A stretch of DNA of 64,000 bases from Halobacteriovorax sp. HLS (GTDB taxonomy: Bacteria > Bdellovibrionota > Bacteriovoracia > Bacteriovoracales > Bacteriovoracaceae). Below are positions 5,986 to 41,674 of this stretch, one piece after another. Location of the stretch: contig NZ_QOCL01000003.1 of NCBI RefSeq assembly GCF_004006665.1, positions 186,001 to 250,000 of the forward strand, written 5' to 3'. The notes beneath the pieces were generated by a model that saw only the letters and a list, made by a program, of their open reading frames with translations, searched no databases and had not been told where the DNA came from. A program made the translations under genes and the position numbers. Each line of letters starts with the position of its first letter. The first letter of the stretch is position 1.

Positions 5986-6813
5986 TTATTTTGTAAGAGG
6001 AAAGAATTGGATATTTAACTGATAGACTTCATCACCGGGAGAAGATTCAATATCTTCGGAGAATTGGATTTGAAACTCTCTAATTAACTCTTTTGCTTTA
6101 GGAATATTTTCTTTCGTTAGTGATAGAGTTGTAGCGTGTAGTGATCTTTTATCCTTATCAGTTTTAATGGCCTCAAAGGAGTTTTCCATTAATCCTTTAT
6201 GATAGGCATGGGCACCACTAAGTGTTACTTCTTTAGTAGGTAGGATGGAGCTTGCTGCAACGATAACTTCTTTGCCATCTCTAAATTCTTTAATAAGAAA
6301 TTTCTTTTCAAGTAGAGCTTCAAGTAATTCAGATGCCTCCTCTTTTTTAATGAGTCCACCAGTTTTATTTTCAATCCATGCTCCGGTTGGAAAGAAATCT
6401 TTTAGTTGTGTTAGCTCTTTTACACAATGGGCCTTCCAATTAAAAAAGAGATCTATACTTGGAGTATTCTTTTCTCTTAATTGTTTGAGTTCATCATTTT
6501 GCTCTAGCATCAGGATCGTTAAATTGGGATCACTCTTGGTACTTTTGGCTATTTTTACGAGCTCTTCAAAGTAATAACTTTCTTTTGCATCGAACTTAAA
6601 AAAGTCGATAAGTGATTTTTGAATTTTCTTTCCAGCGTGTCTTTGGCCGTTAATAACCATGGTTATTGACGATATGGAGTTTAGACCCAATTTAGAAGAC
6701 CACAGTCCATATGACCATGAAGGATTTACACGCTTTTTCATTTCAAAAAAATCACGTAGAAATTCACGATAATCACTGTAGTCGAAAATATTTAGTTTCT
6801 TTTGTTCTTCCAT
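5986..6813 (-). CDS. TIGR02147-family protein (DUF4423)
   Basis: This 275-residue protein matches the TIGR02147 family in its opening (NIFDYSDYREFLRDFFEMKK), its SWSYGLWSSKLGLNSISSIT segment and its C-terminal lineage-typical ending (EIQFSEDIESSPGDEVYQLNIQFFPLT). The family is expanded in Fibrobacter and Bdellovibrio-type bacteria. The N-terminal part looks helix-turn-helix-like and a regulatory role is usually assumed, but I know of no established function. The ATG at 6813 is clear. It is a single gene on the minus strand. Its presence supports assigning the window to the Bdellovibrionota. Confidence 0.8.
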   Translation of the reverse strand: MEEQKKLNIFDYSDYREFLRDFFEMKKRVNPSWSYGLWSSKLGLNSISSITMVINGQRHAGKKIQKSLIDFFKFDAKESYYFEELVKIAKSTKSDPNLTILMLEQNDELKQLREKNTPSIDLFFNWKAHCVKELTQLKDFFPTGAWIENKTGGLIKKEEASELLEALLEKKFLIKEFRDGKEVIVAASSILPTKEVTLSGAHAYHKGLMENSFEAIKTDKDKRSLHATTLSLTKENIPKAKELIREFQIQFSEDIESSPGDEVYQLNIQFFPLTK

Positions 6814-6978
6814 AATTACATAAGCTTATCGGTAAATATATTTTATGCTTAAGTATTTTTCACATATTTTGCGAAGTATTCACAAAAAGTGCGTAGGGAA
6901 ACTTGACTAGTTTGCTTTTGAACCGTTGTTATTCCATTACTTTAATAATAGAAATCATTCATAAATTTGGAGACAAAA

Positions 6979-20528: not shown

Positions 20529-23402
20529 TTGAAAACAATATTATTTCTTTTCACATTTAGTATCTCTAGCTCATGGGCCTTACCAGGCATGACAAATGTT
20601 CAGATGAACTTTAGCAATCTAGAGGGCTCTCTTTCAACTGAAGCTCTAAAATGTGTAAAAGCAAACTCTTCTGAAAAAGGGCTCGCTGTTCTTTCGAATT
20701 ACCTTAATAAAATTGACTGTAATAGTAAGAGTGATCCGAAAGAGTTTTGTGAATGTATTGCCATAATTTCAAAAGATAAATTTAATCTATCTGCAGAAAA
20801 AGAAATTAAAGTTGTGGAATATGTAAAGAATATGATTGCACAGAGAAATATTTTAAAAGCTAAGGAGCACATATATAACTCTGATAGTTTTTTGAATCTC
20901 TCAATGACTATTTCTGGAACTAACCTTGTTGATAAATGTTTAAGTCCCTCTGTCTCTAATCAGAATATTCAAGAAGTTAATAATTCGAGATCAGACGCTA
21001 AGGCCTCAATTAATCAGCAGGCAAAGGTTACGGCATTTGATGATATCGTAAATGAATTAAAGAATACTCACTTTGATAGAGGTGAAGAGCTTATTCAACT
21101 GAATGCCTTAATGATTAGCTTAAAAGAGACTAAGTCTGAAGCAATTGACTGGGAAAGATTATCAACTGTTTCACCGTATTTTAAAATGATGTCCAAAAAC
21201 AAAAGAAGAAATTTTCTTTTGAGTAAGCAGTTAAGCGCATATCCAGAATTTGAAGATATCAGTTATGCTGTACCTAATGTTAGCTTAAGAGGGGTGTCTT
21301 TAGATCAGCGTTCAGTGTTTAAATTAGGATTACAGAAACTTAAGAGTGATCAAAATAAAATGCTCACAAAGAACTTTGCAAATAAAATTGTTGAAGGTGA
21401 ATGTAGAGAGTTTCGAAAAGTTGTAGATAATGCATTAAGCTTTAATTTAGATGAGCAGTATGATGTCATGATGAAAAGTGTTATTAATCCTGAGACTAAA
21501 GAGGATTTTGCTACTCTAGAAAAAATTGAAAGCTTCTTAGCTAAAAATCTTGCAGATGATGACATTACGAAAAAGCTTCTTTTATTTGATATTGATAAAC
21601 TCTATTGTTCAAAAAAAGAACTAACTCATGTTTTTCAGTCTCTTGAAATTAATGAAGAAATTATAAAATCTAAGTCTGCAACATTTAAGACATTTGATGA
21701 CTCTCTTAAACTTCTTCATGGGTCTATAGAAGAGGCCTCTAATGAGTTGGAAGCAATTAATAATGAGCTTGCTTATGAGCAAGAGTCTTTAGAGAATTCT
21801 CATGTTGAGCAAGCAGTTTTTACTTCTCTTAGTAAAGGGGAGTTTTCAAAAGTTGTTGATGGAATAAAAGTTATTGATCTTGAGAATGAAGATTTAAGAA
21901 ATTTACTAAATAATTGTGATTCACAAAGGTGCGATCCTCTTTTAACAGCGGTAGGTCTTGTTCCTCATATCAGCTATGATGAGTTTAAGCCAGAGCTTGA
22001 TATGATCCTTAAAGGCTATGAAGAGACTTCAGTTGAAGACAGACAAAAGAAGATTGATGTCTTGACCACGAGACAAAAAGATGTTCAAGCTAAATTATCT
22101 CGTTTGAACCAAGGTTATAGTGATTTAAATAAAGGTAGAAATGCATTTATTGCTGACTTGAAAAAGGAGTTCGGAGACCAAGGGTATAGCGAAATCATTG
22201 CTTCTTCTGAAGTTGGTAGACAACATATGAGATCATTCAACCAAAACGTTGGCCTGACGACTAGTAGAAAGAGTCGTAGACAGAGAGTTCAGGACGCTCT
22301 TTCTAAGCTTAATTTTGAAGTAAATGAAAAGGCTTATGTGACAAGTACAAATTCCACTCCTAAGAAATTAGTTCAAGACTCACTACCAATCCAGAAACCA
22401 AGTATTATTAAAAGTGAAGGTGTCATTTCAAGCTTAGGGAAGTACTTTAAAGCTCCTGGGGCAGTTACTGATAATACACAAGTTAATACAATTGTATCTA
22501 AAGTCGAACAAGAAGATCAGCAGCAAAAGAAGAGCGAGATTGAGGATGCTATTGCTAGGCTAGAGAAGCTAGTTAGTGAAAACTCGGAAAAAACGAAACT
22601 CAGCTCGTCTTCGCAATCAGCTGAAGACAAAGAAATTGAAAATCTAAAAAATAAAATTGAACTTGAAAAGTTAAATATTGAAAAGGCAAATCTTGAAAAG
22701 AAAATTGCTCAAACTAAAAGTGAAAAGAGCAATTTACAGCAAAAGAAGGCACTCGCTAAATCAAATGATACGAACTCTCTTGTAGACCCAGCTTCAAAAA
22801 ATAGCTCAAGACCAGCTAGTTTTGAAACTCTAAGTGCGAGTACTGGAGCTTCTTTTAACTCTAGCAAGTCAGCATCAAGCTCATTACCAGTTTCTAGTGC
22901 CGTGCCAAGTGCTCCTGCTGCAAGCTCAGGTGCTGTAAGCTCTTCAAGCGTATCTGCTGAGAGTATCTCTGCAAGTACTACAGGTTCGGAAGCTAGATCA
23001 AGCAGAGCACCAGCTAGCTCAAGCTTCTCTTTATTAGAAGATAGTAGCTCTAGTTTTGAAATTGTAAACCTATCTGATCTTAATAATACTCAAAGGGCCA
23101 GTGACTCAAGAGTTGTCAAAATCGATTTTATGTTTAATAAGATTGATTCATCTGAAAGAGAGGCCTTTATCAAAAATCTCTTTTATAGTGGAGAAGACTC
23201 TTTAATCTTAGAGCTACCTGATGGAGAGAAGCTATTTGTTGAAAATAATCAAGTCGCCAAAACTGAGAAGACTGGTCAGTTAAAGAGAGCTGTAAAAGAT
23301 GAGAAAGAGCAAAGGCCAAAAAGAAGTAAGGATGACCGAAAGAGGTATGTTGACCTTAAAAAACTTCTAAAGGTTGGCACTTCACAGCAAGAATTTGAAT
23401 AG
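20529..23402 (+). CDS. Large exported protein, first of a tandem paralogous pair
   Basis: The 957-residue product begins with a signal peptide cut near SSSWALPGM. The start is TTG at 20529, with GAGGG about 10 bp upstream. The N-terminal 130 residues hold several Cys (for example ALKC, KIDC, FCEC). Helical and coiled-coil segments dominate to about residue 780. A Ser/Ala-rich linker follows (about 790-860), then a conserved C-terminal domain opening DSRVVKIDF and containing SLILELPDGEKLFVEN, and a Lys/Arg-rich tail. The next gene encodes a similar protein. No known family is recognised; it is likely periplasmic or surface-associated. Confidence 0.65.
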   Translation: MKTILFLFTFSISSSWALPGMTNVQMNFSNLEGSLSTEALKCVKANSSEKGLAVLSNYLNKIDCNSKSDPKEFCECIAIISKDKFNLSAEKEIKVVEYVKNMIAQRNILKAKEHIYNSDSFLNLSMTISGTNLVDKCLSPSVSNQNIQEVNNSRSDAKASINQQAKVTAFDDIVNELKNTHFDRGEELIQLNALMISLKETKSEAIDWERLSTVSPYFKMMSKNKRRNFLLSKQLSAYPEFEDISYAVPNVSLRGVSLDQRSVFKLGLQKLKSDQNKMLTKNFANKIVEGECREFRKVVDNALSFNLDEQYDVMMKSVINPETKEDFATLEKIESFLAKNLADDDITKKLLLFDIDKLYCSKKELTHVFQSLEINEEIIKSKSATFKTFDDSLKLLHGSIEEASNELEAINNELAYEQESLENSHVEQAVFTSLSKGEFSKVVDGIKVIDLENEDLRNLLNNCDSQRCDPLLTAVGLVPHISYDEFKPELDMILKGYEETSVEDRQKKIDVLTTRQKDVQAKLSRLNQGYSDLNKGRNAFIADLKKEFGDQGYSEIIASSEVGRQHMRSFNQNVGLTTSRKSRRQRVQDALSKLNFEVNEKAYVTSTNSTPKKLVQDSLPIQKPSIIKSEGVISSLGKYFKAPGAVTDNTQVNTIVSKVEQEDQQQKKSEIEDAIARLEKLVSENSEKTKLSSSSQSAEDKEIENLKNKIELEKLNIEKANLEKKIAQTKSEKSNLQQKKALAKSNDTNSLVDPASKNSSRPASFETLSASTGASFNSSKSASSSLPVSSAVPSAPAASSGAVSSSSVSAESISASTTGSEARSSRAPASSSFSLLEDSSSSFEIVNLSDLNNTQRASDSRVVKIDFMFNKIDSSEREAFIKNLFYSGEDSLILELPDGEKLFVENNQVAKTEKTGQLKRAVKDEKEQRPKRSKDDRKRYVDLKKLLKVGTSQQEFE

Positions 23403-23482
23403 TTTAGCTCACTTATACTTTAAAATTAAGTTTTCACTCAAGTATTCCGATTATTGTATATAAATTTACGATATAGGATGCT

Positions 23483-26350
23483 TTGAAGAAATTATTACTT
23501 TCAATATTTTTAGTGACATGTATGGCGGAGGTTTTTGCACTGCCTGGAATGGTTTCTGTGCAATATGATTTCTCAAAGTCTCAAACGCTATTTAGCTCTG
23601 AAGCAATTCAATGTCAGAATCAATTTACTCAAGGTATCTCACCACTAGAGCAATTAAGTAATAATATGATGAAGTTCAACTGCAATAATCAAGTTGAGCA
23701 TGTTCCTTATTGTAGGTGTGTGAAAAAAATCTCCAGTAATGGGCTCACTTTAACTGCTGAAGATGAGGCATTGGCCAAGGAAACGCTTAATAATGTTTCT
23801 GACACAATACTGTTAGACTCTTTTCATAACGACCTAAAGTCTAATACAACTTCATATCGGGAATTTATGGGTTCATCTCACTTTGATGAACTATTTGATA
23901 AATGCTTTTCTGGAAAAGATGGTGTCTTTAAAGAGATAGATACACTTAAGAAAAAGAAGGATAGTGAACTATCGAGTTTAGAAAAGGCAAAATTAGAGTA
24001 TTATCACACATTATTAAAAGATTATGATACTTACTCACCAATTTATAAAAACGTGCCTTTTGATATGGTCATGGGAAGGCTTCTCCTAGAGAAATCTAGC
24101 TCTAAGAATAGAGAAATTACTGAAAAAGACTTATCGAGTTTTGAACATATTCCTTTGTTAAATATCCTTAATGAAGAAGATAGGGTTGAGTTTGTCACTC
24201 AAAGGTCTAGTATTGAAATTTCGAATAAGAATATAAGGAATATTCTCACAGACTCTAAGCAAAGACTTCTGAAGCACTTTGACAATAGATGTCTTGAAGT
24301 ATCGAATCAGATAGAGTCTCAAATGGACTCATATAAACCACAAAAAGAAGCAATCTTTCAAAATATTTTAGATACTGGTGGGCAAGACTTTAATGATGAA
24401 AATGATAGCTTTTCTAAACAACTTAGAATCGCTGCGCAGAAGGTGGTCTTAAGAAAATATCCAGAAGTTATGAGTAATGAAGATACTAAAGAAAAAGTAT
24501 TCAAAGAGCTTGTAGATGAAGTTATATTCAATGTTGATAAGTATTTCTGTAAACATAATAGAAGAGTAGTTAGTCCTCCAACTTATGAAAACTTAGATGA
24601 GCAAGAAGCTTCGAATAATATGGTTAAGTTATATGCTAGTAGAGAAGAAGTCGTTCCTGAGATTCTTGAGCTTGATAGAAAGATTGAAGGTCTTAAAGGG
24701 GAAGTCGTAAGCCTTATTGACACAACAAGAGAAGACAAAGAGTCTTTAGAGTTTCTGATTGAAATTGAAAATCTAATCAATCCTGAAAATAAAACAGAAG
24801 ACGGCCATTTTTTAAATCTAGATAATGTCAGTGAAGAATTCACTAGTAAACTCAAATCAAATCCATTTCTAGATGAGATCTCTGTTAAGCATATCGATGA
24901 AAACGGAAAGAGTCACAGAATTGTTAATCTTGAGAGTCTAAAAGATTTTAAGGACTACTTTAAGATGTCTGTTGATGCTAATAAGGAAGTTAATGATAAG
25001 AATTTGACTCTATTAGCTGAAAAAGAAAAAGAAAGAGCAAAACTAAAAGAAAAGCTTCAAGCTATAGATGATGAAATAAATAAAACTTTTAGAGGACTTG
25101 AGGTTAGAGTGGGGACTTCGCGAGCTGAATTCATACGCGATCGAAGTAAGGAAAATGCAAAGACAAATCATCATCTTGGTAGAGTCTTAAATATTGCTAA
25201 AACGTATAAAGATACTCAAAGAACTAATACGATAGATGATTTAACCTATATGAGATCTAGAGAGAGAGGATTAAAGACCTACTTTAAGGAGTTGTCTGCA
25301 AGTGAAACTCTTGTATCTAGTGCGACAGAAATTAAGAAAAAAGAGAATACACAGAAATCTGTAAGTTCTGAATTAATAAATAGAGATGATCGATCTGAGG
25401 TGATATCAAAAGTGCCTAAAAGTGATCCGTACTTTAGTATAGGGAAACGCCAATCAAGTTTAGACTTTAATAAGGTGAAAATTCAAGATTCAGTTAAGTC
25501 TGATACGCCTTCTAAACGTGAGACAGAGTTATTAAAGCAGCTTGATCGCTTAAAGAAGTACATTGAAGATAACAATAAGAATGAAGAAGTAGTAAAAACA
25601 AATATTGAAGATAAGTCTATCGATGCGCTAAAAAAAGAAGTCGAGTTACAAAAAGTTAAGAACGAAAAAATACGTTTGGAAAATGAGTTGCAAGCTCTTC
25701 AAAGTAAACCCGCTACTGGAGTTCAAAACGATGAGGGGGCCACTAAGGTTAGTACTAGAGAGAGCTTTGATCGTGAACGGGTTAGTGAGTCCGAGGACTT
25801 TAAAATAAGTAGACCTAGTGTTACTAATGGAGAGCGGACGAGTAGTTCAAAAACAGAAGTTGCAGGTAGTAAAATAGTTGCTCCTGCTAATACTTCTTCC
25901 TCTTCGAGTCTAGCTAACAATGATAACTCTAAAATTAAGAGTACATCTGGAGCCGTGTTGTCAGGTAGTAATGTTGAAGCAGATAGACTGAACCTACTAG
26001 GGATTGTTGATTCAAGTTCCATTTCATTAAGGAAGTCTACAGGAGTTGAAGCAACACAGGATTCTCGTGTAGTAAAATTGGAATTTGATCTTGATACGAT
26101 ACCAGTTAGTAATAGAGAGGTTTTCTTGGAAAGTTTACTTCTTGAAGGTGAGGATTCAATTGTCATTGAATTACCTGATGGAGAAAAATTAATTTTAGAA
26201 AACAAGAAAGAAGATTCTCGCTTTGTTGGTCCAATAATGAAGAGTAATGAAAGAGAGCTTGCATCAAAGAAGAAAGCTCATCCTCGCAGAAGTAGGATAT
26301 TATATAAAGATTTACAGAAAATTCTTAATTCTAGTTTAATTTCACAATAA
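23483..26350 (+). CDS. Large exported protein, second of a tandem paralogous pair
   Basis: The 955-residue product shares with its upstream neighbour a signal peptide ending ALPGMVSVQYDFS, N-terminal SSEAIQC and FNC/YCRC cysteines, long coiled coils and a C-terminal DSRVVKLEF...SIVIELPDGEKLILEN domain. The linker before it is Ser/Thr-rich but less extreme. The start is TTG at 23483 with AGGA 5 bp upstream; an overlapping ATG CTT TGA out of frame is just ahead. The gene lies 80 bp downstream of the first and is probably in the same transcript. It overlaps the convergent methylase gene by 20 bp. Function is unknown. Confidence 0.65.
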   Translation: MKKLLLSIFLVTCMAEVFALPGMVSVQYDFSKSQTLFSSEAIQCQNQFTQGISPLEQLSNNMMKFNCNNQVEHVPYCRCVKKISSNGLTLTAEDEALAKETLNNVSDTILLDSFHNDLKSNTTSYREFMGSSHFDELFDKCFSGKDGVFKEIDTLKKKKDSELSSLEKAKLEYYHTLLKDYDTYSPIYKNVPFDMVMGRLLLEKSSSKNREITEKDLSSFEHIPLLNILNEEDRVEFVTQRSSIEISNKNIRNILTDSKQRLLKHFDNRCLEVSNQIESQMDSYKPQKEAIFQNILDTGGQDFNDENDSFSKQLRIAAQKVVLRKYPEVMSNEDTKEKVFKELVDEVIFNVDKYFCKHNRRVVSPPTYENLDEQEASNNMVKLYASREEVVPEILELDRKIEGLKGEVVSLIDTTREDKESLEFLIEIENLINPENKTEDGHFLNLDNVSEEFTSKLKSNPFLDEISVKHIDENGKSHRIVNLESLKDFKDYFKMSVDANKEVNDKNLTLLAEKEKERAKLKEKLQAIDDEINKTFRGLEVRVGTSRAEFIRDRSKENAKTNHHLGRVLNIAKTYKDTQRTNTIDDLTYMRSRERGLKTYFKELSASETLVSSATEIKKKENTQKSVSSELINRDDRSEVISKVPKSDPYFSIGKRQSSLDFNKVKIQDSVKSDTPSKRETELLKQLDRLKKYIEDNNKNEEVVKTNIEDKSIDALKKEVELQKVKNEKIRLENELQALQSKPATGVQNDEGATKVSTRESFDRERVSESEDFKISRPSVTNGERTSSSKTEVAGSKIVAPANTSSSSSLANNDNSKIKSTSGAVLSGSNVEADRLNLLGIVDSSSISLRKSTGVEATQDSRVVKLEFDLDTIPVSNREVFLESLLLEGEDSIVIELPDGEKLILENKKEDSRFVGPIMKSNERELASKKKAHPRRSRILYKDLQKILNSSLISQ

Positions 26351-35462: not shown

Positions 35463-36035
35463 TTAATTTGTCATAAGAAATTTCAGATCTTCTTCTAGTT
35501 CCTGATCGGTAAGCTCGGTTGAATTTCTGATTTTAAGAACTTGCTCTTTCTTTCTAGATTGAGATTTGAGCAGAGAGATTTTAGATAGCTTCCCTGAGAA
35601 ACTGGTTAGGCTTTTGAGCTCTTTTGTGTACTGGATTTCAAAATGCTCCCCAAGGTAGGCAGTAGAGTTTTCTCTTATATTTATAAGAAGACCAGATCTC
35701 TTTTTTAGCTGATCTTTTTGTTTAAAAAATCTTAGATGTCCTTCTATTAAACTTAATAGTCTAACTCCATGAGAGTTTGTTTTCCTGAGTAAGACTTTAG
35801 AATTTGGTGCAACAACTACAGTGCCGATAACCTCATCATTAAAGTCGATTAGAACAATTCCATTGTTTGAAGTTACAATAATATCATTACTAGAGATTCT
35901 ATCCATGGTTGTTACTTTGGTAGGAGTGTTCGTACCTTGAAAGATAAAAGAATTTCCTTTTATAGAACTAACAAAAATCTCGGCCTTTAGATCAATTGAT
36001 AAAACGAATAGAAGAATTAAAAAGATGCTTTTCAT
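35463..36035 (-). CDS. Exported FecR-like protein
   Basis: The 190-residue product has a signal peptide (SIFLILLFVLSIDLKA), then a FecR-type beta domain: NGIVLIDFNDEVIGTVVVAP followed by SKVLLRK, LLSLIEGHLRFF and NSTAYLGEHFEIQY, which parallels the LGVRGTEF block seen in the FecR protein at 63092. FecR domains sense or bind at the periplasmic face in regulatory systems. Its ATG overlaps the PilZ-GAF-AAA+ gene by 4 bp (ATGA), so it is coupled to that regulator-like protein. The C-terminus is short and charged. Confidence 0.55.
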   Translation of the reverse strand: MKSIFLILLFVLSIDLKAEIFVSSIKGNSFIFQGTNTPTKVTTMDRISSNDIIVTSNNGIVLIDFNDEVIGTVVVAPNSKVLLRKTNSHGVRLLSLIEGHLRFFKQKDQLKKRSGLLINIRENSTAYLGEHFEIQYTKELKSLTSFSGKLSKISLLKSQSRKKEQVLKIRNSTELTDQELEEDLKFLMTN

Positions 36036-37747
36036 GAAGCTTCTTTCTTAGAATTGAGCTGCTCAAGTAGCTCAAATAGTTTATATGGATGAATACTGTA
36101 ATCACAATGATCTGCGATAACTGATTCAATCTCTTTGGGTGATTGCGCTAGGTCGCTACTTGCCTCTATCAAGTGTATTTTACTTTCTTGATCCGCACGA
36201 ACCATAAATGCTTTTATAATACTCTTTTCTAATTGTGTAATATTACCTGGCCATGAGTATGTTGTTAGATAACTAAGGCTCTCTGGAGAGAGTTCAATAT
36301 TAGATAAATTTCTTTTTTTGCACTCCATCTTAATAAAATACTTTGCTATTGGAAGAATGTCTTCACTTCTATTTCTTAGAGGAGTTATATGAAAGAGAGA
36401 GTGTGATAATTTCTTATAGAGTAATTTGTTAAATTTTGCTGTCTCTACCTTATAATTAAGATCTTCTGTGGTCGTAGATATAATTTGACACTCGTGAAAT
36501 TGAGACCAATTGAATAACTCATTTTGTTCTTTTTCCGTCAAATAATTAATATTCTTTAGAACTATTGAAACACTCTTGGCCAAAGGAGTAGATGTTTCAA
36601 ATAACTCTTTTAGCTTTTCTTTGTCTTTACAGTTGTAGATTTCAGTCTTGCTCGTATTTGCTAATTCTTTTGCAAAGAAGGCCTTTCCTAGTCCAACTTC
36701 TCCAACAATGTGAATATTATTCCTTCCATACTTAAGCTTTCTAAGTGTGGATCGTATGGCGGCGGACTTTTGACCAGAGCCGAAGTAGATAAAGTCATCT
36801 TCAAGCTCTGGGTTTAGATGAGCAATTCGAGTTGATTTAGATTTAGGGCTAAAACTTAGAAAGAACTTTGACATCACCATGCTAAGAAAACTTGCTGTGA
36901 CTTCATCTTGTAAGCTAAATCTGCTCTCAGATTTATTAATAAATTGATAAACCCCAACACATTTCTGTTCTTTGTTTAAGATAGGTAGACATAAAATGCT
37001 TTTTTCGACAACTTCATCTTGTTTTCTTTTTCTACCATCTTTAAGAACTTTGTTAATACATTGAGAAGTGGTAAAGGACATTCCAACTTCTTGCATCGAA
37101 AAGTTCTTCTCTTTTAGAGTCGTTGAGCCCGTACTTGAATAAATATTTTCAAGCTTATCATTATCAACATTTATCTTCCATAACCTTACTTCTTCACAGT
37201 TTAGAAGGTGTTTACTTTCATCTATAATTTCAATAATACTTGATTCGTTAAACTCTTTATAAAGAACATTAAGTAGGCTAAATAGTTCAATCCCATCGGA
37301 GATACTTATTTCTCTGGCCGATAGGGCAGACTTTATAAGAAACTTCTTTAACTTACTACCAGAGAATCCAGCTACGTAATCTGTGATAAAGTACTTAAGT
37401 TCGGAGTCATTATTTTGATTAAGTAGTTCAACGCCATAGTTATACAGCTTTGAGTCCTTACTCTCTGAAAAAGATCTTATCACTCTGGCATTTACTTCGA
37501 AGTCCCATTTGTTAAATATCTTTTTGGTATATAGCTCTAGCTTTAAATGGGTATCAATTTTAATTTCAATATCTGTCTTAAAGGACATACTAAATAGGTT
37601 GAAGTCAATTATTGAAACATTTTCATGAATGATCTGACCTCTGTTTTCCCCATCTAAGACTGTAATTTTTATGAAAACCTTGTCTTTTTCGTCGGTTTTA
37701 ACTCTAAATGATCTATAAAATTTGAAATTTGTTAGTCCTATGCTCAT
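36032..37747 (-). CDS. PilZ-GAF-AAA+ protein, degenerate sigma-54 activator type
   Basis: The 571-residue protein has an N-terminal PilZ-like domain (FYRSFRVK, ENVSIIDFNLFSMSF; the usual Gly of the second motif is replaced), a GAF domain (about 165-295) and an AAA+ domain (about 320-515). Walker A reads GEVGLGKAF (350-357), with Ala where Ser/Thr is normal. Walker B (SIVLKNINYL) lacks both acids. PLRNRSEDILPIAKYF and YSWPGNITQLE (497-507) match sigma-54 activators, but the GAFTGA loop and a C-terminal Fis helix-turn-helix are absent. ATP hydrolysis and sigma-54 contact are unlikely. The ATG at 37747 is 86 bp from its divergent paralogue. Confidence 0.7.
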   Translation of the reverse strand: MSIGLTNFKFYRSFRVKTDEKDKVFIKITVLDGENRGQIIHENVSIIDFNLFSMSFKTDIEIKIDTHLKLELYTKKIFNKWDFEVNARVIRSFSESKDSKLYNYGVELLNQNNDSELKYFITDYVAGFSGSKLKKFLIKSALSAREISISDGIELFSLLNVLYKEFNESSIIEIIDESKHLLNCEEVRLWKINVDNDKLENIYSSTGSTTLKEKNFSMQEVGMSFTTSQCINKVLKDGRKRKQDEVVEKSILCLPILNKEQKCVGVYQFINKSESRFSLQDEVTASFLSMVMSKFFLSFSPKSKSTRIAHLNPELEDDFIYFGSGQKSAAIRSTLRKLKYGRNNIHIVGEVGLGKAFFAKELANTSKTEIYNCKDKEKLKELFETSTPLAKSVSIVLKNINYLTEKEQNELFNWSQFHECQIISTTTEDLNYKVETAKFNKLLYKKLSHSLFHITPLRNRSEDILPIAKYFIKMECKKRNLSNIELSPESLSYLTTYSWPGNITQLEKSIIKAFMVRADQESKIHLIEASSDLAQSPKEIESVIADHCDYSIHPYKLFELLEQLNSKKEAS

Positions 37748-37832
37748 AAAACTTTGTCGGTATAAAGATGATATATATTTAAGGAAAAAGCTAAAAATCC
37801 CGATATGTTATTAGCACTTTTATGGAATTAAA

Positions 37833-39692
37833 ATGGAAAATATCGCAAAATTAAAGTCTTACAGATCTTTTAGAATACCAGTTAAGAGTACTGATAATAT
37901 TTATCTTAGCTTGATGAAATGTGACGGTATTCTCCTCAGTGATGAACATGTAAAGTGGGAGCTTCAAAATGTAAGCTTAACAGGCGTTGCCTTTCAAAGT
38001 AGTGCCAAGTTTGACGAGTCCGCAGTACTTGAGATTGAGTTGAAATATAAGCGATTCCGTTTTAATGCGAGTGCTAAAATAATTCGTATTACTCCTCTAT
38101 ATAATGAGTTTTCTGAAATTGTTAATTACTTATACGGAGTAGAGTTTTTTACGCAAGACCAAGAAAATGGCCGAGATTTTATTTCTCATTTTATCTCAGG
38201 ATTTAGCTCTAAAAGACTAAAGAGGCATTTAATTAATCTTCTCATTAACGAAAGTAATATAAATACTTTTTCAGATGGTCAAAAATTAGCTCTTTCTATG
38301 AATCTGTTTCAAGATATGAAGCAGTTTAAAGGGATGGAGTCTTTTCTTTCCATGATATTTAATGAGTGCTGTCGTATCTCAAACTCTGAGTGTGCCAATA
38401 TTTTTATTCTAAATAAGAAGCGTGACAAATTGTTAAAACTTGATATTTCGGATAATTCTAGGCGTGAATTTTGTTCTTTAGAAGGGCAAGATCTCATTAA
38501 CGAAGTTCTCTCAAAGAAGAGGTATAAGATAATTAGAACAAGTGGACACTTGAGTTTAAGGACTTTTCCAAGTCTTGCTGTAGACTCCAAAGGTCAAGAC
38601 TTTAAACATGCTTTATTTTTTCCCATGTTGGATTCTCAAAAAAATGTGTGTGGATTTTTTGAGTTTATTAACTTTCAGTCTGAGCGTGGTTATACTGATC
38701 GCGACCTTGGAGTAATCGAGATTTTCAGTAGCATTTTTACGATGTGTTATGAAAATCTTGATAAGAGTGAGTATGTTGATCACCTCGTTGAAAATTTCGA
38801 ATTTACGAATAATGGTGAAATTGTTGCCACTCAGAAAAATGGTGATAAAATATCTGAGTTTATCGAATCTACGAAATCCTCTAGAGATAATATACTTATT
38901 CAGGGAAGCCATGGTGTGGGAAAAATTCACTTGGCAAAGAAAATACATGAACAAAGCGATAGTGCTAATATGTCTTTTGGACAGATCCATTGTGAGAGTA
39001 TCGGCAGTAATGATATTCGCCTTCTTTTACTTGGTGATGATGAAAATGTTGGTAGACTTGAGCTTTACTCTGGTGGAACTCTTCTAATTCATGAGCCTAC
39101 AAAACTAAGTCTTGAAAACCAAAAAGTACTTCGTGAAGAATTGTCTAAAAGAGAAGATATAAGAATAATTGTAACCACTGTATTTAATCTTGAAAAGCTC
39201 TCTTTAGCTGGTGAGTTTGATACACCACTTCTAGATATTATTAGTGTGAATGACTTCTTCTTAGAAGATCTAAAGGAAAGAAAGAGTGATATACCTTATC
39301 TGATTAATCACTTCCTTGATCTTTACTGCCATAATTATGGACTTCCGGCCAAGAGGGTTAGCCCTCAAGTAATGGAAGTTCTTAAAAATTACACTTGGCC
39401 TGGAAATGTAGGCGAGTTAGAAAGGACAGTAGAAAGACTTGTAAATTATTATCCATATATCAGATTCATTGATGAACTTCCTCAAAAGGAATTTCCTGTT
39501 ATTGGACAATATGCTCGTCAGTTTGGTCTTTTTAGAGACCTTGAAATTGACTTTTCTAAAGTTGATAACGATAAATTGAAGTCCGTAATTATTTCTAGAT
39601 TTTGTGATTCACACGGTTTAACTGAATCTGAATTCTTAGAGCTCTATCCTGAGCTAGAGCAAAAACTTGAAGATCTAGAAAACGTCTCATAA
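37833..39692 (+). CDS. PilZ-GAF-AAA+ protein, degenerate sigma-54 activator type (divergent paralogue)
   Basis: The 619-residue protein mirrors the gene at 37747: PilZ (SYRSFRIP and LQNVSLTGVAFQS, which retains N-x-S-x-x-G), GAF (about 165-310), and AAA+ (340-545). Walker A is GSHGVGKIH (358-366). Walker B reads GGTLLIHEP, with His replacing the catalytic Asp but the Glu kept. LKERKSDIPYL and TWPGNVGELERTV are classic activator motifs, yet GAFTGA and the DNA-binding C-terminus are missing. The intact PilZ motif suggests c-di-GMP or a PilZ-type partner input. The ATG at 37833 has a weak GGAA. The two genes diverge from an 85-bp gap. Confidence 0.72.
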   Translation: MENIAKLKSYRSFRIPVKSTDNIYLSLMKCDGILLSDEHVKWELQNVSLTGVAFQSSAKFDESAVLEIELKYKRFRFNASAKIIRITPLYNEFSEIVNYLYGVEFFTQDQENGRDFISHFISGFSSKRLKRHLINLLINESNINTFSDGQKLALSMNLFQDMKQFKGMESFLSMIFNECCRISNSECANIFILNKKRDKLLKLDISDNSRREFCSLEGQDLINEVLSKKRYKIIRTSGHLSLRTFPSLAVDSKGQDFKHALFFPMLDSQKNVCGFFEFINFQSERGYTDRDLGVIEIFSSIFTMCYENLDKSEYVDHLVENFEFTNNGEIVATQKNGDKISEFIESTKSSRDNILIQGSHGVGKIHLAKKIHEQSDSANMSFGQIHCESIGSNDIRLLLLGDDENVGRLELYSGGTLLIHEPTKLSLENQKVLREELSKREDIRIIVTTVFNLEKLSLAGEFDTPLLDIISVNDFFLEDLKERKSDIPYLINHFLDLYCHNYGLPAKRVSPQVMEVLKNYTWPGNVGELERTVERLVNYYPYIRFIDELPQKEFPVIGQYARQFGLFRDLEIDFSKVDNDKLKSVIISRFCDSHGLTESEFLELYPELEQKLEDLENVS

Positions 39693-39859
39693 TTGTTGAT
39701 ATTGCCAACTTATTAATGCAGTCATTTTTTACAAATTCTATTAAGTAATAGAGTTAAGTGTCCGAAAATATATAAGTGCAATCCTATTAAATATATTTGA
39801 TTAGCTGATGGTCTTTTTACGAGAGATAATAAGATATAAGGCGATACAAAGAGACTTTT

Positions 39860-41674
39860 ATGAAAACAAAGAGATTAATACATTTTGTTATAAGTTACTT
39901 TCTTCTGATGTTGCATGCTCCTGTTGGGCTTGCCAGTCAAGAAGGAGCTGCCTCAAATACTACTACAGAAGTCAAAGAAGAACCTCTTGAGGTTTGTGAG
40001 CGCCCTCTCTTTTATAATGAATATGCAAAGGTATGTGTAAACCATAAAGATAATACTATGCTTAATAATAAGCATATAGAATGTCAGCATACACCAGAGG
40101 GGCCAGGAAGAGACGAATGTAATAAACAACTACGTGAATTTGCCGGAGACAAAATTAAGGGTAGCGCCGTAATGAAGTCTCGAAATTCAAAGTTAGAAAA
40201 AACAGGAAAGTTTAATACTGTTTCATCTTTGGTTTCAACTGGTTCAGCTATTTATTCCTTAGTTAAGGCCAAGGATGCAATCGATATTTGTTATGCCGGA
40301 ATTGCTGAAGCGGAATCAGGTTTTTGTTATGCTGCGATTCTTGGTCTTGGTGCTTATGTGATGGGTACCTATAATCAGATAAAAATGAATAAAGAGGTAA
40401 AGAAGGATTTACGAGAGTCGACTGAAAAGCTTAATAGATTGATTGCAGAGAATAAGAGATCTAAAGGTAAATCATTTGAAATGCAGATTAAGCTCATGGA
40501 AGCTTATAGAGATGCTCTAGTTGCGGCCTCAGCAGCTGCTGGCAAAAGAGAAAATGGCTATAAACAAGAAATTACTCTTCATACTCTTGTTATGGCCGTG
40601 GCCGCAGTAGAGTTTGTTGTATATATGAGTACAACTCCTGCAGCAAATTATCCAGGAGCAAAGTGTGCGGCATGGGCAGGAGTATCTTCTGGTGTTACGA
40701 TTGGCTTCAGTATGCTGCTCAAGAAAGGAGCCGCAGATGCTAAGAAGAAGTATAACGATGAAGCAGCAAAGCTTACTCAAATTCTAAACAAGTATAGAGA
40801 ATTCTTTTCTAAGCAAATTATTAGCTCTCATAAACTTCCGGGAGCAGAGACTGGACAGGTTATTGGTAGTGGAAATGCACCTGTAAATGTGCAGGTTAAC
40901 TCCGACGCTGATGGAGATAGCTTTGCGAATAAGAATCTAACTGAAGCTGAAAAAGGACTATGTCGTGAGTTGCCTGAAACTGGTTGTTGTAATGATGCTG
41001 GAAAACAGTGTCCAACTTTCAGTTTCACTTCAGCCCCGGCCTCTGTAGGAGATATGTTCACAGGTTCTGGTGTTGAGGATATCGTTTCAAATACAGATGC
41101 TACGTTACAAGGGGATTTAGATTTCGGTTCTCCTGATGTAAGTACTGCTCTTAGTAGAGATTTATCAAGAGCACGTCAAATTAAGAAGAGAATTTTAGAT
41201 CACCTTGATAAGTCTGGAAAGCTTACTAAAGCAGACGCTGACTTCTTTGATGAAAATAAAACTTTTGCAGCGCTTGTTAAGAGTGCAACAAGAGATGGGA
41301 AGTTAAACTTTAATAATTCTCCGGACTTTGGTATTGGAGATATGTCGAATGTTAAGGGGGTCATTGAAGATACCGAGGTTCCAAAAGAATTGAAAAAAGA
41401 AAAGCAGAAACTATTAACCTCAATTGAAGCTCCTGTTATTAAAATCAAAAAGTTTAATCTTGATGATTTAGATGATGAAGATAGTTTGAATTCAAATAAT
41501 AATATAAGTGGAGATTATTCAAATTTAAAGGCAGGTCTTGGAAAAGATGAAGAGTATGTGTATGAAGATGAAGATATTGTTAAAAAGCCTGAGGTTTCAA
41601 TTTTTAACGTAATTAGTAATAGGTATAATATAATGAGAATTAAAAAAGGCTTTGGTCAAAAGAAAGCGAAATAA
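39860..41674 (+). CDS. Exported or membrane protein of unknown function, 604 residues
   Basis: A signal peptide (residues 1-26) precedes a Cys-bearing N-terminal region (C46, C59, C75, C87). Three hydrophobic segments (about 153-172, 238-257 and 267-287) are linked by a charged helix (175-215). A second Cys cluster appears near residues 372-387 (LCRELPETGCCNDAGKQC), and the C-terminal 200 residues are acidic and low in complexity. No family is recognised. The ATG at 39860 has AGAG upstream, and the gene ends in a strong terminator. It may assemble into an envelope complex, but this is only inference. Confidence 0.5.
   Translation: MKTKRLIHFVISYFLLMLHAPVGLASQEGAASNTTTEVKEEPLEVCERPLFYNEYAKVCVNHKDNTMLNNKHIECQHTPEGPGRDECNKQLREFAGDKIKGSAVMKSRNSKLEKTGKFNTVSSLVSTGSAIYSLVKAKDAIDICYAGIAEAESGFCYAAILGLGAYVMGTYNQIKMNKEVKKDLRESTEKLNRLIAENKRSKGKSFEMQIKLMEAYRDALVAASAAAGKRENGYKQEITLHTLVMAVAAVEFVVYMSTTPAANYPGAKCAAWAGVSSGVTIGFSMLLKKGAADAKKKYNDEAAKLTQILNKYREFFSKQIISSHKLPGAETGQVIGSGNAPVNVQVNSDADGDSFANKNLTEAEKGLCRELPETGCCNDAGKQCPTFSFTSAPASVGDMFTGSGVEDIVSNTDATLQGDLDFGSPDVSTALSRDLSRARQIKKRILDHLDKSGKLTKADADFFDENKTFAALVKSATRDGKLNFNNSPDFGIGDMSNVKGVIEDTEVPKELKKEKQKLLTSIEAPVIKIKKFNLDDLDDEDSLNSNNNISGDYSNLKAGLGKDEEYVYEDEDIVKKPEVSIFNVISNRYNIMRIKKGFGQKKAK

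Follow-up and report, generated by a model that had tools for sequence, protein, structure and literature searches.

Two divergently arranged genes in the window, by which we mean the whole 64,000-nucleotide stretch of Halobacteriovorax DNA that was analysed, encode paralogous pseudo-AAA+ proteins that, judged by their sequences, are ancient divergent derivatives of NtrC-type activators and belong to the same clade as a third, HTH-bearing paralogue, C. Protein A (571 aa) is encoded at 36032..37747 on the minus strand and protein B (619 aa) at 37833..39692 on the plus strand. The 85-bp intergenic region between them (37748..37832) contains two facing sigma-28-like sites with overlapping -35 boxes. 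On the A side, the minus-strand gene of an exported protein of 190 aa, F (35463..36035), putatively a FecR-like remnant of a FecR-domain barrel protein, overlaps A through the ATGA at 36032..36035 on the same strand, the F frame beginning at the A stop. This layout, from the coordinates and protein lengths to the divergent gap and the overlap, is just as the first-pass annotation had described it.

In A, a degenerate PilZ domain (residues ~10-130), a GAF domain (~168-296), a pseudo-AAA+ core (322-457) and a lid (458-528) are followed by a short C-terminal tail with no HTH. B has PilZ at ~10-122, GAF at ~148-305, the pseudo-AAA+ core at 332-480 and the lid at 481-539, and ends in a helical tail with no HTH match. 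Pfam detected the sigma-54-activator AAA+ core and lid in both proteins, with E values of 6e-24 and 2e-13 for A and 4e-11 and 7e-19 for B, and the PilZ domain in B (E 4e-6). The PilZ domain of A had no Pfam match and was assigned from homology to B and C and from predicted beta strands; the GAF domains of the window's A and B were assigned from homology and models, and some other members match Pfam GAF. The shared architecture put forward in the first-pass annotation is borne out, with the PilZ of A and both GAF domains resting on homology or models and not on Pfam. NCBIfam models for bEBPs also match the AAA+ region of A and B, far under their cut-offs. The AlphaFold models have a mean pLDDT of 78 for B and 76 for A and a pTM of 0.42-0.43, so that the domain arrangement is unreliable. 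By Foldseek they resemble the solved AAA+ domains of the bEBPs FlrC, PspF, NtrC1 and VpsR, with best E values of 3e-18 for B and 1e-12 for A. Both proteins have the sigma-54-activator-type AAA+ fold, comprising core and lid.

The functional motifs were counted in 16 A, 17 B and 78 C proteins, nine further bEBP-like proteins encoded by the window's genome serving as controls. The GAFTGA loop is deleted throughout (0/16 A, 0/17 B and 0/78 C keep it); GAFTGA and the Walker B DE are kept in seven of the nine controls. Walker B reads KN in the window's A and HE in its B, as the first-pass annotation had noted in describing A as having no acids there and B as having His for Asp, and the Walker B Asp is present in only 2/16 A, 0/17 B and 8/78 C. 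The first arginine finger is absent from all 111 proteins, the second from every A and B and from at least 76 of the 78 C, and the sensor II Arg is missing in the window's A and B. On these motifs the ATPase centre of both A and B is predicted to be dead. No HTH family match was found among the 16 A or 17 B, and the B tails of some relatives are faintly like the Fis region (G098, E 0.011). The loss of GAFTGA, the Walker B Asp and the Fis helix from A and B, which had been proposed from the window alone, is confirmed by these counts, and a profile check of the two proteins turned up neither GAFTGA nor a C-terminal HTH. The view that A and B would make no sigma-54 contact and no recognised DNA contact is upheld.

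The Walker A motif fared differently from what had been claimed. An Ala in it had been taken as a defect of one protein; it is not a lesion, because sister species have Glu, Asp or Ala at this position and the other bEBPs of the genome mostly have Glu, and both proteins retain an intact GxxGxGK (GEVGLGK in A, GSHGVGK in B). The suggestion that one partner binds nucleotide and the other does not is consequently weakened for the window. Its direction nevertheless fits the family, in which A loses the P-loop in two other genera (wholly gone, with a collapsed AAA+ domain, in genus g55, and with the Gly preceding Lys lost in four of five species of genus g12) and the GxxGxG glycines are retained in 17/17 B. 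The P-loop Lys itself is kept in 13/16 A, in 15/17 B, the other two having Arg, and in 78/78 C.

The third paralogue places these losses in an evolutionary context. C is a protein of 647 aa encoded elsewhere in the window's genome (G000:C12:147475-149415; L076:7476-9419), in which Pfam detects PilZ, GAF, AAA+, lid and a Fis HTH (HTH_8, E 6e-10). The Fis HTH is kept in 78/78 C, 63 by a strict pattern and 15 by eye. A match to the C family was found in 114 of 129 Bacteriovoracaceae genomes and in 72 of the 73 good ones, a few of the matches being partial; among 241 genomes drawn from the phylum, no full-length C with PilZ was found outside the family, and only GAF-AAA-Fis parts match. Phylogenetic trees resolve A, B and C as three clades nested in a larger one, with SH-aLRT values of 97 for A, 98-99 for B together with the D genes described below, and 100 for C; the identity of C to A or B is 27-31%. 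The GAFTGA and motor losses are common to all three, so that the loss of the HTH alone sets A and B apart. Most of the losses noted earlier are thus no hallmark of the pair. A genome devoid of sigma-54 was considered and rejected, as rpoN is present. In several genomes C lies 5' of diadenylate-cyclase-like, YbbR-like and glmM-like genes. The window's genome also encodes another GAFTGA-less bEBP-like AAA+ protein of 314 aa (G000:C4; L206:7609-8553), directly 5' of genes that look flagellar by their sequence starts (flgB, flgC, fliE, fliF and fliG).

The divergent A/B pair was found in 16 genomes from five genera, and a 17th genome, G074, has A truncated where the contig ends. The locus is syntenic, lying among mevalonate-pathway-like, crotonase-like and trxB-like genes. 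Among three close species the synonymous sites are saturated (pS 0.75-0.82) and the amino acid identity of the pair is 74-82%, as compared with 92-94% for C. The saturation made dN/dS not computable for A, B and F; conservation of the protein in the face of it indicates purifying selection on the pair. A chance pairing was rejected for the same reason and because the arrangement is conserved in five genera. The frames are open in all 16 genomes except for one internal TGA in the B match of G078, where the gene call is nevertheless 646 aa. The distances of A and B are correlated given those of C (partial r 0.83, 12 genomes, permutation p 0.0005), a co-variation above the C background to which shared rates at one locus could contribute. 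The next gene downstream of B on its strand in genus g10 (L074:6562-7851 and L085:6259-7572) encodes an exported protein bearing a lipase-like HGIAS motif.

The gap between A and B holds a promoter-like site for each gene. On the B side, TTAAG-N16-CCGATA (37779..37805, plus strand) scores 11/11 against the attack-phase consensus of Bdellovibrio, and on the A side TTAAA-N17-CCGACA (37755..37782, minus strand) scores 9/11. That consensus, TTAAG-N16-CCGATA, is carried by 92 of 140 mapped promoters (PMC3627812) and comes from a different family of predators from Halobacteriovorax. TATCGG...CCGATA or a near variant occurs in the gap of most A/B pairs, and we read the sites as back-to-back sigma-28 (FliA) promoter-like elements with a common TTAA -35 core. 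Scores of at least 9/11 were found in 15/16 B, 11/16 A and 27/35 C leaders versus 9% of 421 others (Fisher p 4e-14 for B, 3e-8 for A and 6e-19 for C, the sequences being related and the events not independent). With the enteric FliA consensus, 75% of A/B leaders scored versus 1.5% of 197 controls. The B-side sites of genus g55 are weak in two of three species (9/11 in G097, 6/11 in G099). The window's genome encodes fliA and has 15 exact attack-phase sites versus four for the reversed pattern; one of the 15 lies 5' of a short gene resembling a type IVb pilin, and the targets of FliA in Bdellovibrio include genes for TAD pilins (PMC5430801). In Halobacteriovorax the -10 box of A is just 7-8 nt 5' of the start codon, so that the mRNA would be nearly leaderless. 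Taken together, A and B may well be expressed in the attack phase.

Similar sites were observed elsewhere in the window. Another of the 15, an exact TTAAG-N15-CCGATA at 6827-6852, is just upstream of a minus-strand gene for 275 aa (5986-6852). An exported protein of 604 aa with no Pfam match (39860-41674), 3' of B and similarly placed across the genus, has a TTAAG-N16-CCGAAA site near 39741-39767. Each of two neighbouring exported proteins of 957 and 955 aa (20529-26350), alike in length and start, has a 10/11 attack-phase-like motif upstream.

The neighbourhood of A in relatives offers a reading of F. In G097, G098, G099 and G136, A is followed by a LolA_like gene and then by a protein of 594-688 aa whose N-terminus is FecR-like and whose remainder is barrel-like; PF17131 matched with E values of 2e-49 and 4e-55 in the two cases tested. 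F aligns with the FecR-like N-terminus of the barrel protein (hhalign probability 99%, E 3e-18) and is therefore best read as the surviving FecR part of such a protein, which agrees with the earlier description of a FecR-like exported partner of A. Each of the five Halobacteriovorax genomes has the F frame starting at the stop of A, with CTG replacing ATG in three of them (CTGA), which argues for translational coupling, and F is probably coupled to A. The apparent CTG start, a rare start codon kept at the coupling site, is that of L077, L078 and L080; in a fourth sister species, L079, there is no ATG, GTG or TTG at the start of F either.

The rest of this module is variably present. The Halobacteriovorax A/B locus keeps the FecR part alone, and in genera g10 and g12 the locus has the pair but neither a FecR nor a LolA-like nor a barrel gene. 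LolA_like and FecR-barrel genes occur together in eight genomes that have no pair, and Pfam places an RND/MMPL gene next to them in four of these genomes, as position and sequence do in another three; no RND gene was found beside an A/B pair. In G094 and G039, a divergent pseudo-bEBP, D in the trees, flanks an RND - LolA_like - FecR-barrel operon. The best tree groups D with B; a firm grouping was rejected, since the AU test, completed for G039 only, leaves C or other bEBPs possible. The first gene of these two RND operons was rejected as an A homologue, the similarity not being significant. The idea of a complete exporter at another locus of the window's genome as the partner was likewise rejected: the genome's single LolA_like gene has another kind of outer-membrane-like protein as its neighbour, no RND gene adjoins it, and nothing connects it with A or B. 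In one genus, RND-type transporters with an extra N-terminal domain (L126:8814-11858, L132:7446-10451 and L130:3367-6207) are faced by a small divergent gene (126-147 aa) at the position taken by the pseudo-bEBP in G094 and G039.

What, then, would such a pair do? The full explanation that we prefer, tentatively and at somewhat short of a balanced judgement, is that A and B are attack-phase partner subunits that do not bind DNA and signal through protein contact. The sigma-54 loop and the ATPase centre would have been lost by the time of the split of A, B and C, and the Fis helix would then have been lost in A and B. Back-to-back sigma-28 promoters would drive both genes in the attack phase, a signal would enter through GAF/PilZ, and the output would be an AAA+-mediated protein contact that touches neither sigma-54 nor DNA. 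The assembly would most likely be a mixed one of A and B, possibly with C too, and the target of the contact could be C or an envelope component; the hetero-oligomer, its contact partner and its ligand are what we infer here. Against this contact model, the Fis-like tail of the G098 B makes some DNA contact by B possible, and the pair is dispensable for C, because most genomes with C have no A/B pair. The latter point weighs also on an unlikely but serious alternative, in which A, B or both are negative subunits whose mixed assemblies with C bind DNA poorly and so tune the C regulon in the attack phase. The three proteins share fold and clade, the C leaders also carry the attack-phase motif, so that all three could coexist, and the bEBP partners FleQ and FleT of Rhodobacter sphaeroides have been cited as an unequal pair (PMC9542535); however, the pair has no genetic linkage to C, and their identity to it may be too low for mixing. 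Rather unlikely is that A and B are dedicated controllers of the FecR/LolA-like/barrel envelope exporter, directly or via F. The operon of A in the four relatives, the divergent pseudo-bEBPs by the RND operons of G094 and G039 and, in five species, an F frame that starts at the stop of A speak for such control, but the g10 and g12 loci manage without these genes, Halobacteriovorax retains only the FecR part and the pair has no adjoining RND gene, the exporter is present elsewhere in the family without the pair, and the G094 and G039 genes are not placed exclusively with B. Sequence alone does not tell whether A and B form a sensor on their own, inhibit C or control an exporter.

An improbable combination of these ideas has a dead AAA+ heteromer acting post-transcription, with GAF/PilZ input switching an envelope machine (FecR/LolA-like/barrel, sometimes with RND) and with the sigma-28 promoters, which share a -35, competing and so setting the A:B ratio. 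The proposal of the first-pass annotation, that PilZ binds c-di-GMP and the pair organises partners as a scaffold, we consider quite improbable. The PilZ fold is there, D/NxSxxG is kept in 17/17 B and 78/78 C, a shifted RxxR occurs in 17/17 B, predation in Bdellovibrio is governed by c-di-GMP (PMC3271064), and VpsR, likewise without GAFTGA, binds c-di-GMP according to the title of structure entry 7v2b; but a c-di-GMP response is weakened because the first Arg of RxxxR is missing in 111/111 A, B and C, and A has also lost D/NxSxxG (0/16). A literature search on PilZ-GAF-bEBP proteins in Bacteriovorax returned nothing relevant. That the pair is a decaying relic with no present role is very improbable: its faster change than C between close species, the motif losses and the collapsed AAA+ domain of the g55 A would suit decay, whereas the open frames, the protein conservation under synonymous saturation and the retention of both promoter-like sites do not.

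On the preferred reading, in which A and B signal through protein contact, a family of transcription activators has shed its motor and then its DNA-binding helix, yet persists as a conserved pair. The pair also points to C as a nearly universal regulator of Bacteriovoracaceae that has no sigma-54 loop, and the Bdellovibrio-like attack-phase sites to which A, B and C are tied offer testable handles on the control of hunting in other predators. The relation to C, these sites and the FecR/LolA-like link are of greater interest than the motif losses alone. New here are the pairing in 16 genomes, the promoter-like sites in the gap, the operon of the relatives and the A-B co-variation.

Comparison with known systems sets A and B apart from each of them in some respect. 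They share with NtrC-type bEBPs such as FlrC, PspF and NtrX the AAA+ core and lid and the LRxRxxDI and WPGN motifs, and with NifA-type proteins a GAF domain ahead of AAA+; they differ from the NtrC type in lacking GAFTGA, the Walker B Asp-Glu, the arginine fingers and the HTH, and in having an added PilZ-like domain. Other bEBPs without GAFTGA act at sigma-70 promoters and, in the cases described, do so without needing ATP hydrolysis (PMC10274813). The sigma-54 loop is deleted in A and B as in VpsR and the NtrC proteins of Rhodobacter and Caulobacter (PMC10274813), but those keep a DNA-binding HTH and A and B do not, and it is C that comes closer to them. Hetero-oligomers of paralogous bEBPs are represented by HrpR-HrpS, FleQ-FleT and VnfA1-VnfA3 (PMC9542535). 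FleQ-FleT and HrpR-HrpS resemble A and B as paralogous bEBPs with separate roles and a proposed working as pairs, whereas they activate sigma-54 promoters; A and B have no sigma-54 loop and their assembly is putative. The relatives' loci recall AmeABCD (PMC6394551) in combining a LolA-family periplasmic protein, an outer-membrane barrel and an RND pump, and differ in that the relatives' barrel protein bears a FecR domain, of which the window keeps a FecR-like fragment only. With the FliA regulon of Bdellovibrio (PMC3627812, PMC5430801), the window has in common the full match of the B site, the near match of the A site and the presence of fliA, while Halobacteriovorax belongs to a different predator family and the membership of A and B in such a regulon is suggested by their upstream sequences.
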